Shown here: in pieces, positions 55,675 to 59,762 of the stretch | Numbering within the stretch: the first letter of the stretch is position 1 | Layout of the letters: each line of letters opens with the position of its first letter | NCBI RefSeq assembly: GCF_013366925.1 | Contig: NZ_JAALDK010000001.1 | Span: forward strand, 1,247,089 to 1,311,088 | Length of the DNA: 64,000 nt | From: Paraburkholderia youngii | GTDB taxonomy: Bacteria; Pseudomonadota; Gammaproteobacteria; Burkholderiales; Burkholderiaceae | Direction: 5' to 3' | The notes under the pieces: model-generated | Told to the model about the DNA's origin: nothing | Database searches by the model: none | Seen by the model: the letters and a program-made list of their open reading frames with translations, nothing else | Program-made: the position numbers and the translations under genes

Positions 55675-58600
55675 TCAGGCGGGGTCGCCGTCGGAAACGC
55701 GACGGATGCCATGCAGGCCACTGTTGCCTTGCCCCTGAGAGCGAGACCGCGAGATGTCGGCCGCCTCTCGCGACGCATCCAGCGCGCCGGCATCATCGCC
55801 GACATCCATAAGGCGGGCCGACAAGTTGTTGAGGCTCCTAACAAGGTCAGGTGCAAAGCGGTCTGGGTTCTCGTGTGCGAGACGCCTACGGATCTCCACC
55901 GCCTCGCGAATCGCATCCAGCGCACCCGCGCCATCGCCCGTGTCTTTGAGGCGGTCCGAGAGATTGTGGAGGCTCTTGGCAAGACTGGGCGCAAAGCGGC
56001 CCGGATTCTCCTTTGCGAGCGAGCGATAGATGTTGACCGCTTCGGCTATCGCGGCAAGTGCTCCCGCGCTATCGTTCGCATTGTGGAGACAGCTCGCCAG
56101 GTTGTGGAATGTGGCGGCGAGATCGCGAGCGAAACGGCCCGGGTCCTCCTTTGCGAGAGGACTATAGATTCTTACCGCCTGACGGATCGCGTCGAGTGCC
56201 CCCGCACCGTCGCCGGCATCGCCAAGGCGGAGCGACAGATTGTTGAGGCTCATGGCGAGAGCGGATGCGAAGCGGCCCGGGTCCTCTTTTGCGAGAGGAC
56301 TATAGATATTCACCGCCTCACGGATCGCGTCCAGTGCCCCCGCGCCGTCGCCGGCATCGCCAAGGCGGACCGACAGATTGTTGAGGCTCATGGCGAGATC
56401 GGCTGCAAAGCGGTCCCGGTCATCCTGTACTAGCCGTCGCCGGAGCTTCACCGCCTCGCGTATTGCAGCCAATGCGCCCGGGCCATCGCCCTCAGTATCA
56501 AGACAGTTCGAAAGGGCTTGGAGGCTCGCGGCAAGAGCAGGTACGAAGCCGCCGGGGTTCTCCTGTGCGAGACGCCGCCGGATCTGAACTGATTCGTGGA
56601 TCGCCGCCAGCGCGCCCGCTCCATCGCCAGCATCCTTGAGGTGGAGCGACAGGTTGTAAAGACTGGTTGCGAGGTCGGGCGCGAAACGGTCTGGATTCTC
56701 CTGTACGAGATGCCACTGGAGCTCCGCCGCCTCGCGGATCGCGGCCAGCGCGCCCGCACCATCCCTGGCATTACGGAGAAGGAGCGACAGGTCGTTAAGG
56801 CTCCCGGCTAGATCGGGAGCGAAGCGGCCCGGGTTCTTCTGTGCGAGACGCCGCCGGATCTCCACCGCCTCGCGCATCGCGACCAGTGCGCCGCCGCCAT
56901 CACCGGCATCGGCCAAGCGGCGCGACACGTTGTGGAGGCTGCTGCCGAGATCGGGCGAAAAGCGGTCTGGGTTCTCCTCTGCGAGAAAACGATGGATGTT
57001 CACTACCTCGCGCATCGCGATCAGTGCGCCGGCACTGTCGCCGGCATCGTCGAGGCGGAGCGACAAGTCGTTAAGGCTCACGCTTAGATCAGGAGCGAAG
57101 TACCTCGGGTTCTCCTGGGCGAGACGCCGCCGTATCTCCACCGCCTCGCGGATCGCGACCAGCGCGCCTACGCCATCACTGGCTTTGGCCAGGAGGAGCG
57201 ACAGGTTGTGGAGGCTGCCGGCGAGCTCGGGCGAGAAGCGGTCCGGGTTCTCTTCCGCGAGAAAGCGATAGATTTTCACCGCCTCGCGGATCGCGGCCAG
57301 CGCGGCGGCGCCATCGCCGGCATCGCCGACGGAGCGTGAAAGGTTGTTGAGGCTCATGGCGAGATCGGCTGCGAAGCGGCCCGGGTTCTCTTGTGCGAGA
57401 CGCCGCCGGATCGTCACCGCCTCGCGGATCGCGGCCAGCGCGCCTGCGCCATCGCCAGCATCGTGAAGGCGGACAGACAGATTGTTGAGATTCATGGCGA
57501 GATCGGGTGCGAAGCGGCCCGGGTTCTCCTGCACGAGACGCCGCCGGATTTCTACCGCTTTGCGGATCGCGGCCAGTGCGCCTGCGCCATCACCGGCATT
57601 GTGAAGGCGGAGCGACAGGTTGTTAAGGCTCATGGCGAGATCGGGTGCAAAGCGGCCCGGGTTCTCCCGCATGAGACTCTGCCGGATCTCTACCGCCTGA
57701 CGGATCGCAGCCAATGCGCCCACGTCATCGCCGACGTTGCCCAGGAAGTCAGAAAGACTATTGAGACTCATGGCGAGATCGGGTGCGAACTGACTTTCGT
57801 TCTCCTGCGCGACAGACTGAAAGATATCTACTGCCTCGCGGGCTGAAGCTACCGCGCCCGCGCGATCACCTGCATCACTGAGACGGACGGACAGGTTGTT
57901 GAGGCTCGCAGCAAGACCGGGGGCAAACTGGCGCTGGTCCATCTCTACGAGACGCCGCCGGATTTCTACCGCTTCGCGGATCGCGGCTAGCCCGGGCCCG
58001 CCATCGCCGGCGTCGCCGAGGCGATTTGACAGATCGTTGAGAATTTCTGCGCGTTCGGCAGCTGGAAGATCAGCCATACCAAGCAGCGCCTGGCCAACTG
58101 CGATACCAACCGGACTTAGCCGGAAGCCGACTGCGTTGGCCTCAAGAAAGCCCCGCCATGCTTTGGCACGTTCAGGTTTCCCCGTGACCGCTTCAACAAG
58201 CGAGTCACGCAAGATCCGTTCAGCAGGTCCATGCAGAGTAACCAAGTCGTGCATACGCCTGCTCAAGAGTTCGATGTGATCCGCTCCGGTTTCAGACAGT
58301 GTCGCCCATACCCAGTCAGCGCGACGGTCCTGAGCATCGATGAGCACCTGTCGCAGCAGTTCGGCTGCAACGATGTCAGGCGCTGGCGATGGAAATCGAT
58401 TGTCTCTGCACCAGCCCAGCAGACGCACCCCATCGACCACATACTGAGGAGCCGGCAGCCCGATCCCGAGCTCAGGTGCAGCAAGTCGCCGCATCGTTGA
58501 AGCGTCGAGGCCGTCAAGCAAAGCCGCGAGCCCGACCAACCGGGAGGCGCCATGCTCTCCCCACCCTGTATTGCGTCCGACTCGATCTAGCTGGGTGCGC

Positions 58601-59478
58601 TCACGATCGATCAGAGCGGCGACGATGTCTGGCGCTGTCAGGTCGAGCGTCTCGTCAGGTGAGTCCACGAAGTGGACGGCCGCGGCCGTGATCAGCAGGG
58701 GTAATGCAAAAAGCTCCGGGCTTTGGGAGAGCCAATTGTCGATTGCAGCACCATCGAACTGTGGCTTGCTGTAGCCACGATGCTGGGCGAGTCGAGAGGC
58801 GACACGCTTGAACAAAACCGTCGCTGAGACTGTGGGAAGCGCGCGGATTGCCACCTCATGCGCGTCACAGATGTGTGAAGCACGGGCATCGAGGACGTCT
58901 TGTCTCCACTCGTCGAAAGGGCGACGGCTCAACAACAGAATCCGAACCGGCGCGGACGGCTTTTGCCGGTCTTCCCGACCTGCTTCACGAAGCAGACTCC
59001 TCACCTGCTCGCGCCATGCTTCGGGATAATCCAATATGACCAATAGCCCCTTGTCAGAAACAGGAAGGGACGCGCCTTGCTCAAGCGCAGAAAAGCCGGC
59101 ATACCAGCCCTCCGCTTTCAGTCGTTCGGCAAGTTCGGCGGCCAGGCGAGACTTGCCACTGCCTCCGGCACCCACAAGAAACCTGATGCGCAAAGGTTGT
59201 CCCGATCGAGCCCAACTGAGGAGTTCGTCGAGTTCGGGACCCCGGCCGATCAGGTCGTCCGCAAGCCTGCACCGCCAGGAGAGTAGATTGAAAACTTCAA
59301 AAGGGTCGCCCTGCTTGGGCAAGCCCGAGGCCCAGTCCACGATAGGCGGTGGTGATGGCTGCCGGCCGTCGTACACCTGATAAACAAGACCGGAATTCGA
59401 CCCGACGAAGACGTTCCCAACGATCTTTTCGGAGGACACCGCATAACTGCCCCAACGAAAAAGGCGGGGGAATTTCAT
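55675..59478 (-). CDS. STAND-type NTPase with TPR repeats and N-terminal signalling-type motif
   Basis: A 1267-residue NLR-like protein. Residues 21-36 are the short motif GNVFVGSNSGLVYQVY, shared with the upstream gene. Residues 70-300 are a P-loop NTPase: GRGPELDELLSW, Walker A VGAGGSGKS (102-110), Walker B LLVILDYPE (Asp150), and LLLSRRPFDEW as a sensor-like strand. A helical region runs to 470, then one degenerate and 16 regular 46-residue TPR-like repeats (residues 517-1246). The layout fits a sensor whose repeats bind a trigger. No enzymatic effector domain is present, so the effector is probably the 95-residue membrane protein upstream, whose stop overlaps this ATG (ATGA). Confidence 0.85.
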   Translation of the reverse strand: MKFPRLFRWGSYAVSSEKIVGNVFVGSNSGLVYQVYDGRQPSPPPIVDWASGLPKQGDPFEVFNLLSWRCRLADDLIGRGPELDELLSWARSGQPLRIRFLVGAGGSGKSRLAAELAERLKAEGWYAGFSALEQGASLPVSDKGLLVILDYPEAWREQVRSLLREAGREDRQKPSAPVRILLLSRRPFDEWRQDVLDARASHICDAHEVAIRALPTVSATVLFKRVASRLAQHRGYSKPQFDGAAIDNWLSQSPELFALPLLITAAAVHFVDSPDETLDLTAPDIVAALIDRERTQLDRVGRNTGWGEHGASRLVGLAALLDGLDASTMRRLAAPELGIGLPAPQYVVDGVRLLGWCRDNRFPSPAPDIVAAELLRQVLIDAQDRRADWVWATLSETGADHIELLSRRMHDLVTLHGPAERILRDSLVEAVTGKPERAKAWRGFLEANAVGFRLSPVGIAVGQALLGMADLPAAERAEILNDLSNRLGDAGDGGPGLAAIREAVEIRRRLVEMDQRQFAPGLAASLNNLSVRLSDAGDRAGAVASAREAVDIFQSVAQENESQFAPDLAMSLNSLSDFLGNVGDDVGALAAIRQAVEIRQSLMRENPGRFAPDLAMSLNNLSLRLHNAGDGAGALAAIRKAVEIRRRLVQENPGRFAPDLAMNLNNLSVRLHDAGDGAGALAAIREAVTIRRRLAQENPGRFAADLAMSLNNLSRSVGDAGDGAAALAAIREAVKIYRFLAEENPDRFSPELAGSLHNLSLLLAKASDGVGALVAIREAVEIRRRLAQENPRYFAPDLSVSLNDLSLRLDDAGDSAGALIAMREVVNIHRFLAEENPDRFSPDLGSSLHNVSRRLADAGDGGGALVAMREAVEIRRRLAQKNPGRFAPDLAGSLNDLSLLLRNARDGAGALAAIREAAELQWHLVQENPDRFAPDLATSLYNLSLHLKDAGDGAGALAAIHESVQIRRRLAQENPGGFVPALAASLQALSNCLDTEGDGPGALAAIREAVKLRRRLVQDDRDRFAADLAMSLNNLSVRLGDAGDGAGALDAIREAVNIYSPLAKEDPGRFASALAMSLNNLSLRLGDAGDGAGALDAIRQAVRIYSPLAKEDPGRFARDLAATFHNLASCLHNANDSAGALAAIAEAVNIYRSLAKENPGRFAPSLAKSLHNLSDRLKDTGDGAGALDAIREAVEIRRRLAHENPDRFAPDLVRSLNNLSARLMDVGDDAGALDASREAADISRSRSQGQGNSGLHGIRRVSDGDPA
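55741..57930 (-). repeat. Tandem 138-nt coding repeats (TPR array)
   Basis: Sixteen in-frame units of 46 residues, each starting RFAPDLAMSLNNLS or a close variant and containing AGALAAIREAVEIRRRL. DNA identity between units is high enough for blocks such as 57361 and 57499 to match over tens of bases, implying recent duplication or gene conversion. A seventeenth, degenerate unit lies at about 57931-58060. Confidence 0.9.
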
Positions 59479-59762
59479 TTGCGAATATCGTGAACCAGTT
59501 GAGCCGCCGCGATCAATGCGCCCACGATTCCGATCACCCACGCAACGCGGTCACCGTGCGGGGCAGTCCGGCTTGGACCTTCTTTACCCGATGGCGCGGC
59601 CATTTCCGAATAGGTTTGCGTCAGGTGGCCTGATTGGTTCCCGACAACGATATTTCCCTGGACCTTACTTGCCTTCAGGACGTTCGATCGCCTCAGTCTT
59701 GCAATTGCGACGACAAAGAAAATCGCTGCAAGGCCGTAGACAAGGAATCGTTCGATAGCCAT
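59475..59762 (-). CDS. Small two-helix membrane protein sharing the STAND protein's motif
   Basis: A 95-residue protein. Helix 1 is residues 5-21 (RFLVYGLAAIFFVVAIA), then a basic stretch, then GNIVVGNQSGHLTQTY (36-51), a polar loop, and helix 2 at 72-90 (VAWVIGIVGALIAAAQLV). The motif matches residues 21-36 of the large protein at 8 of 16 positions: both Gly-Asn, the Val-Gly, Ser-Gly, Gln and Tyr. The start at 59762 leads directly into helix 1; the longer frame adds 68 residues of noise. It is translationally coupled to the NTPase gene and is a good candidate for the membrane effector. Confidence 0.75.
   Translation of the reverse strand: MAIERFLVYGLAAIFFVVAIARLRRSNVLKASKVQGNIVVGNQSGHLTQTYSEMAAPSGKEGPSRTAPHGDRVAWVIGIVGALIAAAQLVHDIRK

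Follow-up and report, generated by a model that had tools for sequence, protein, structure and literature searches.

We analysed a pair of genes in a stretch of 64,000 nucleotides from Paraburkholderia youngii (contig NZ_JAALDK010000001.1, positions 1,247,089 to 1,311,088 of the forward strand), hereafter the window. On its minus strand, a gene for a 95-residue protein with two predicted membrane helices (P0001) is followed by a gene for a 1267-residue protein (P0002) that combines a P-loop nucleoside triphosphatase (NTPase) with tetratricopeptide repeats (TPRs), in the manner of NOD-like receptors (NLRs). A sequence-only reading of the window had proposed that these two genes overlap by ATGA, that the small protein has two helices, and that both proteins carry one 16-residue motif with 8 of 16 residues identical. 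All three proposals were borne out, the helices being recovered both as hydropathy windows (residues 7-23 and 73-89) and in a structural model (residues 2-23 and 71-94). Below, numbers beginning with L denote compared loci, and the window locus is WIN. The features of the locus are:

59475..59762, minus strand: small gene, 95 residues, helix, motif loop and helix (predicted membrane effector)
59694..59744, minus strand: predicted membrane helix 1, residues 7-23 by hydropathy (model helix 2-23)
59610..59657, minus strand: effector-side motif GNIVVGNQSGHLTQTY, small-protein residues 36-51
59496..59546, minus strand: predicted membrane helix 2, residues 73-89 by hydropathy (model helix 71-94)
59475..59478, minus strand (tcat on the forward strand): ATGA overlap of the small-gene stop with the large-gene start
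55675..59478, minus strand: large gene, 1267 residues, N-terminal motif, P-loop NTPase and TPR repeats (NLR-like sensor)
59371..59418, minus strand: receptor-side motif GNVFVGSNSGLVYQVY, large-protein residues 21-36
58849..59253, minus strand: P-loop NTPase core, AAA_16, residues 76-210, Walker A GAGGSGKS (Pfam E 6.7e-9)
55779..58023, minus strand: TPR array, 17 units of 46 residues (DNA period 138, 16.3 copies)

Both reading frames could be extended upstream, to 163 residues for the small protein and 1288 for the large. The 95-residue start agrees with P0003, and most relatives of the small protein (96 of 105) have a length of 80-105 residues.

When the two full proteins were aligned locally, the motif stretch scored best (53), a value that none of 2000 shuffles of the loop reached, confirming that the likeness between the small and the large protein is not due to chance. 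On the small side, G36, G41 and G45 were each conserved in at least 90% of 94 aligned rows (94 of 106 family proteins, the 12 excluded being mostly fragments or near duplicates), and the strict pattern G-x4,5-G-x3-G-x3-Q occurred in 80 of the 106 proteins, compared with 0.4% of shuffled versions. On the sensor side, G21, G26, G30 and Q34 were invariant in 8 aligned NTPase relatives, as were the P-loop residues G103, G105, G106, G108 and K109; with 17 sequences aligned, G21 and G30 remained at least 90% conserved. A profile of the small-side motif located it between residues 9 and 41 in 17 of 26 large proteins, with E<0.01 in 16, when the best of 1040 shuffled decoys gave 0.021. The reverse, large-side profile matched 79 of 106 small proteins and none of 1060 decoys at E<=0.001. 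The relatives of the large protein came from a search that scored the 7990 candidates sharing most words, at 0.55-1.75 times its length only. Nine of the 26 large proteins escaped the small-side profile, and eight of these nine had another effector-type domain or a hydrophobic segment in that place: a PNP_UDP domain ahead of the NTPase in P0020, a CHAT domain in P0023, a trypsin-like domain in P0025 and P0027-P0030 (from precomputed Pfam assignments) and an N-terminal hydrophobic segment in P0024 (from its sequence). The ninth, P0026, had neither.

A search with the small protein as a single sequence found 3 relatives, and a profile search found 105 at E<=1. These relatives keep one layout of a helix, a positively charged loop with the motif and a second helix. 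Two hydrophobic helices were found in 96 of the 99 family proteins of at least 78 residues, and helix 2 was the best-conserved stretch of the family. The first 18 residues of the loop were more net-positive than either tail in 96 of 99 proteins, with a mean net charge of +3.3 for the loop and of -0.2 and +0.1 for the tails. By the positive-inside rule, this excess would place the loop in the cytosol, within reach of the NTPase, and the small protein is thus predicted to cross the membrane twice with both ends outside. Its predicted structure contains only the two helices. The small protein matched no family in Pfam, PADLOC or NCBIfam (E<=1) or in PHROGs (E<=0.01), and no protein of the PDB by sequence. 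Named relatives came from Stellaceae (P0091), Acetobacteraceae (P0105) and a 73-residue partial frame labelled Streptomyces scabiei (P0128).

In the large protein, the AAA_16 match (36.9 bits, over the Pfam cut-off of 32.6) is followed by TPR_10 with an E-value of 1.7e-65, and the DNA of the array shows 16-17 units of a 138 bp period with 71% matches. Fold comparison of the NTPase half gave a match to 9jap, and the model of the protein places one strand (residues 19-25) at the motif. By its Walker A P-loop and C-terminal repeats, the large protein appears to fit the NLR-like group of signal transduction ATPases with numerous domains (STAND), in which case the TPR repeats would sense the trigger. 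Positions 7, 10, 27 and 31 of the TPR unit were its most variable columns and may mark a fast-changing ligand surface. Assignment as an NB-ARC NLR in the strict sense was rejected, as NB-ARC gave no match in the window's own genome at E<=0.001 or in P0002 at E<=1. PADLOC returned only the Cas11a model for the large protein (TPR residues 1084-1108, E 7.8e-4), which we judged spurious, and sequence comparison with the PDB returned only TPR proteins. The large protein consists of motif, NTPase and TPRs, and no other effector domain was seen in the gene pair.

We then compared the window with 23 loci of NTPase relatives at E<=1e-40, loci above this value being excluded. Three of the resulting 24 loci (L011, L012 and L013) came from a scan of genome contigs that gave 55 loci, with frames listed for six. 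Because only a limited number of candidates was scored in each genome, the counts give no estimate of rarity. A two-helix gene lay directly upstream of the NTPase gene in 11 of the 24 loci (the window, L076, L088, L089, L095, L096, L101, L102, L105, L106 and L109), and in nine measured loci the spacing ranged from a 4-nt overlap to a 15-nt gap, given the starts chosen. The motif pair expected in homologous loci was present in 7 of 24, including the window, at better than 1% by shuffling. The expectation that large homologues would have an adjacent motif-bearing gene stood in part: some have no such gene, and among the 24 loci two have a BELL-like helical neighbour (as judged by eye), five an N-terminal domain or helix fused to the NTPase, and five nothing at all. 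Overall, there is support for the gene pairing, for the partner being a membrane protein and for its coupling to an NLR-like NTPase. The loci are not all independent: L095 is closely related to L096 and L103 to L104, and one genome holds both L105 and L109. L103 runs off its contig, L094 is a fragment, the starts of the L105 large protein and of the L101 and L076 small proteins are uncertain, the L106 large frame has only 401 codons, and the L013 frame is broken. Three further small/large couples (P0034/P0006, P0075/P0013 and P0094/P0007) are known from contigs of equal size (4,550, 10,148 and 4,159,613 bases) and not from DNA, which indicates co-location, not adjacency.

Other arrangements were seen among these relatives. 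A helical neighbour that looks BELL-like by eye lies downstream of the NTPase gene in L012 and upstream in L013, and a hydrophobic helix is fused at the NTPase N-terminus in L011. In L090-L093, the NTPase is preceded by a fused N-terminal domain, some 170-200 residues long (LPELVxRLIxET...FVFVTxRxWPG), which is a candidate new effector or adaptor domain; the two of the four that were scanned, L090 and L092, had no Pfam match there. Helical neighbours resembling BELL by eye also occur in the Rhizobium plasmid loci L067 and L068, so that such neighbours were met in Novispirillum, two Rhizobium plasmids and Elstera, outside the groups usually named for BELL. We do not claim a shared motif in L012, L067, L068 or L013, where the likeness of the C-terminal tail to the NTPase N-terminus is only suggestive (shuffles as good: 51, 26, 15 and 1609 of 2000, respectively). 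A caspase family gene and an EAD1-containing gene (both annotated) adjoin the NTPase locus in L068 (8870-11341), and this region may be a conflict-system cluster. In three genomes (L075, L077 and L078; longer views L111, L112 and L113), the NTPase-TPR gene lies directly downstream of an era-like GTPase gene and is followed by a recO-like gene in two, the third contig ending there (gene names by eye); their short NTPase N-termini are beta-like in appearance and have no adjacent partner gene. L109 (L122) is a second copy of the pair in which the 64-residue small protein keeps both helices and has lost the loop motif, and it looks like a decaying paralogue; L105 (L120) lies on another contig of the same genome.

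The motif itself takes several forms: GNVxVGxxSG in the window, GSAVVNGPVSG in L102, GNVYxGD in L088, GTLNQGNxxAGGDxSI in L089 and NxGxxNSxxxIxNxAG in L096. We compared trimmed loops and N-termini from eight loci, one for each motif type, with L101 and L076 used in turn; L095 (sister of L096), L109 (motif lost) and the three couples from equal-sized contigs (of the window's motif type) were left out. The cognate scores summed to 385 or 389, against a permutation mean of 207 (standard deviation 32), and only 2 or 1 of 40,320 re-pairings scored as high, depending on whether L101 or L076 was used. For the window, L102, L088, L089, L096 and L105, the cognate score exceeded all non-cognate scores among the eight and the best small-to-small score. 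The motifs differ between loci yet often match within a locus, with six of the eight carrying this signal. In the window pair, identical residues share a codon at 2 of 8 positions, where 3.4 would be expected. Because this is below expectation, the window match is not a recent DNA copy, and constraint at the protein level is the better reading of it.

The setting in the genome fits an accessory gene pair. The pair is absent from the syntenic locus of a congener (G1290), where 801 bp separate the flanks (97% and 92% identical), compared with 5,495 in the window. This does not demonstrate a clean insertion site, since the 801 bp of the congener hold a different 186-residue frame. The G+C content of the pair (62.3%) is unremarkable. 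A search for the small protein in 57 other genomes of the genus gave no credible match, the one hit (E 0.0091, 28% identity) containing four stops, and the loci with a hairpin gene, other than the window, were found in genomes sampled from the class to which Novispirillum belongs. In viral contigs, neither the NTPase half nor the small family had relatives; phages held no relatives of P0001, and plasmids no relatives of P0001 or P0094; plasmids gave four NTPase matches, two of them covering at least 80%.

Taken as a whole, these results led us to the explanation that the NLR-like sensor activates its two-helix membrane partner through the shared motif, which we think somewhat likelier to be right than wrong. 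In the proposed sequence of events, the TPR array would bind a trigger and the NTPase would then assemble into a ring or similar oligomer. The N-terminal motifs clustered in this way would form a beta-rich nucleus, probably amyloid-like, which would template the loops of the matching membrane protein. Once clustered, the hairpins could open or disrupt the inner membrane, so that the infected cell would cease growth or die. In this reading, the small protein would damage the membrane of its own cell, probably to protect against infection. The trigger, the amyloid, the membrane damage and the role in defence are the steps that we infer.

Several observations weigh against this explanation. In the untrimmed matrix of 13 pairs, the cognate partner ranked first in its row in only 6 of 13; for the window loop, two other sensors of its motif type outscored the cognate sensor, which came third, and the loop of L105 scored 53 with the sensor P0007 of another motif type, compared with 48 for its cognate. 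Trimming at the proline-rich linker was chosen once this matrix had been seen. In L101 and L076 the motif likeness did not rise above shuffles (614 and 436 of 2000 as good) despite the two-helix gene, and L106 was marginal (24 of 2000). The loop motif is lost in L109, and five of the 24 loci show no partner, within a search that reached upstream and about 2 kb downstream for L075, L077 and L078, to the contig end on both sides for L104, and upstream only for L103. The structural model assigns the loop no structure, placing it at low confidence (predicted local distance difference test, pLDDT, 51-59). No defence island was seen around the pair, where the neighbours look by eye like transport and porin genes, and PADLOC found no defence model for the small protein. 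Finally, over seven pairs the codon was shared in 39 of 57 identical residues, where about 25 would be expected, with the highest sharing in L089 (12 of 13), L088 (6 of 7) and L105 (5 of 5). Recent gene-to-gene copying may have reset both motifs at once in some lineages; such copying would explain the joint change of the pairs, and weakens L088, L089 and L105 as evidence of selection.

Chief among the rival accounts is docking or anchoring without amyloid. Here an ordinary beta interface formed by the motifs would hold the NTPase at the membrane in the resting state, with the small protein as an anchor or regulator and the killing step elsewhere. Two-helix proteins of such small size can be anchors. 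The motif is short and has glycines at fixed spacing, and the strand modelled on the sensor side would suit such an interface; however, the pair contains no other effector domain, and the motif-less relatives carry a PNP_UDP, CHAT or trypsin-like domain where the motif would be. We consider this account unlikely. The locus could also be an ordinary amyloid signalosome built on bacterial amyloid signalling sequences (BASS), with the small protein a degenerate BELL domain. The gene logic is the same, with adjacent or overlapping genes and the motif at the NLR N-terminus, as set out in PMC7889193, and the helical neighbours of L012, L013, L067 and L068 look like BELL by eye. However, the motif lies internally between two predicted membrane helices and not at the C-terminus, and the body of the helical bundle is missing, which makes this account improbable. 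The resemblance could also have arisen incidentally, through duplication or gene conversion involving the neighbouring genes, and carry no signal. This reading agrees with the excess codon identity in L088, L089 and L105 and over the seven pairs, yet it is very improbable given that the residues of the window match while their codon identity is below expectation, and that the motif is widely conserved in both families.

Returning to activation through the shared motif, a wider proposal can be built on it, towards which we lean only slightly from an even balance. The pair would represent a class of immune switches of the amyloid type, whose executioner is a two-helix hairpin already seated in the membrane, its cytosolic loop bearing the templating motif. 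The private motifs of each locus, changing together by selection and in some lineages by gene conversion, would act as insulated channels, and one NTPase family would swap between formats: a hairpin or BELL-like bundle in trans, or a membrane helix or enzyme domains in cis. If this is true, amyloid-type NLR signalling, known in bacteria mainly from filamentous groups, would extend to alphaproteobacteria and to the host of the window, with an executioner of only about 95 residues. The natural pairs with different motifs allow loop swaps that can test motif-to-motif specificity, and an NTPase family with several executioner formats would bear on the evolutionary exchange of NLR effectors. No earlier description of a loop-motif pairing, with a central motif between two membrane helices, was found in the open-licence literature searched, in the parts of it that were accessible (including PMC12261475, PMC8086366, PMC7889193, PMC7885112, PMC7159879, PMC8195603, PMC12881547 and PMC12133306).

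The closest known systems are the bacterial NLR and BELL pairs described by Dyrka and colleagues, which, according to the review PMC7889193, have adjacent or overlapping genes, several families of BASS motifs and a partner thought to act on membranes, and are described mainly from filamentous actinobacteria and cyanobacteria. The pair in the window is like these in its overlapping genes and in the shared motif at the NLR N-terminus. It is unlike them in that the loop of a two-helix hairpin holds the motif of its partner, whereas BELL proteins carry the motif C-terminally; the BELL helical bundle was not found in a protein of 95 residues with only two helices in its model and no Pfam family. 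The fungal pairs NWD2/HET-S and PNT1/HELLP are similar in that an NLR, which for PNT1 is of the NB-ARC and TPR type, activates a membrane-targeting partner encoded next door via a shared short motif (PMC7889193). Their executioner, as described there, reaches the membrane upon activation, whereas the partner in the window is predicted to be in the membrane already.

The RIP homotypic interaction motif (RHIM) of RIPK1/RIPK3 and the PP motif are also short and rich in glycine and valine, and 72 of the 106 small proteins and 10 of the 17 large ones contained (I,V)-x-(I,V)-G. Identity of our motif with RHIM was rejected, since the RHIM/PP/BASS3 core G-(I,V)-Q-(I,V)-G, as given in PMC7885112, occurred in 0 of 106 small and 0 of 17 large proteins; a relaxed form of it, (I,V)-Q-(I,V)-G, was present in 3 of the small proteins and in none of the large ones. 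SLATT effectors, according to PMC7159879, have two membrane helices, are predicted to form pores and belong to NTP-dependent conflict systems. The small protein resembles them in its two predicted membrane helices. It differs in that SLATT is described as responding to nucleotide signals, and in having no Pfam match at E<=1, in a search whose HMMER filters can lose weak matches. Avs and bNACHT anti-phage proteins combine a STAND-type NTPase with C-terminal repeats or a sensor, and mostly have the effector fused in cis. The large protein shares with these the NTPase and C-terminal repeats, and differs in that its effector would be supplied in trans. The gene pair follows the logic of NLR/amyloid-effector pairs such as BASS/BELL and HET-S, but has a hairpin as the effector, whose loop, instead of a C-terminal tail, carries the motif.

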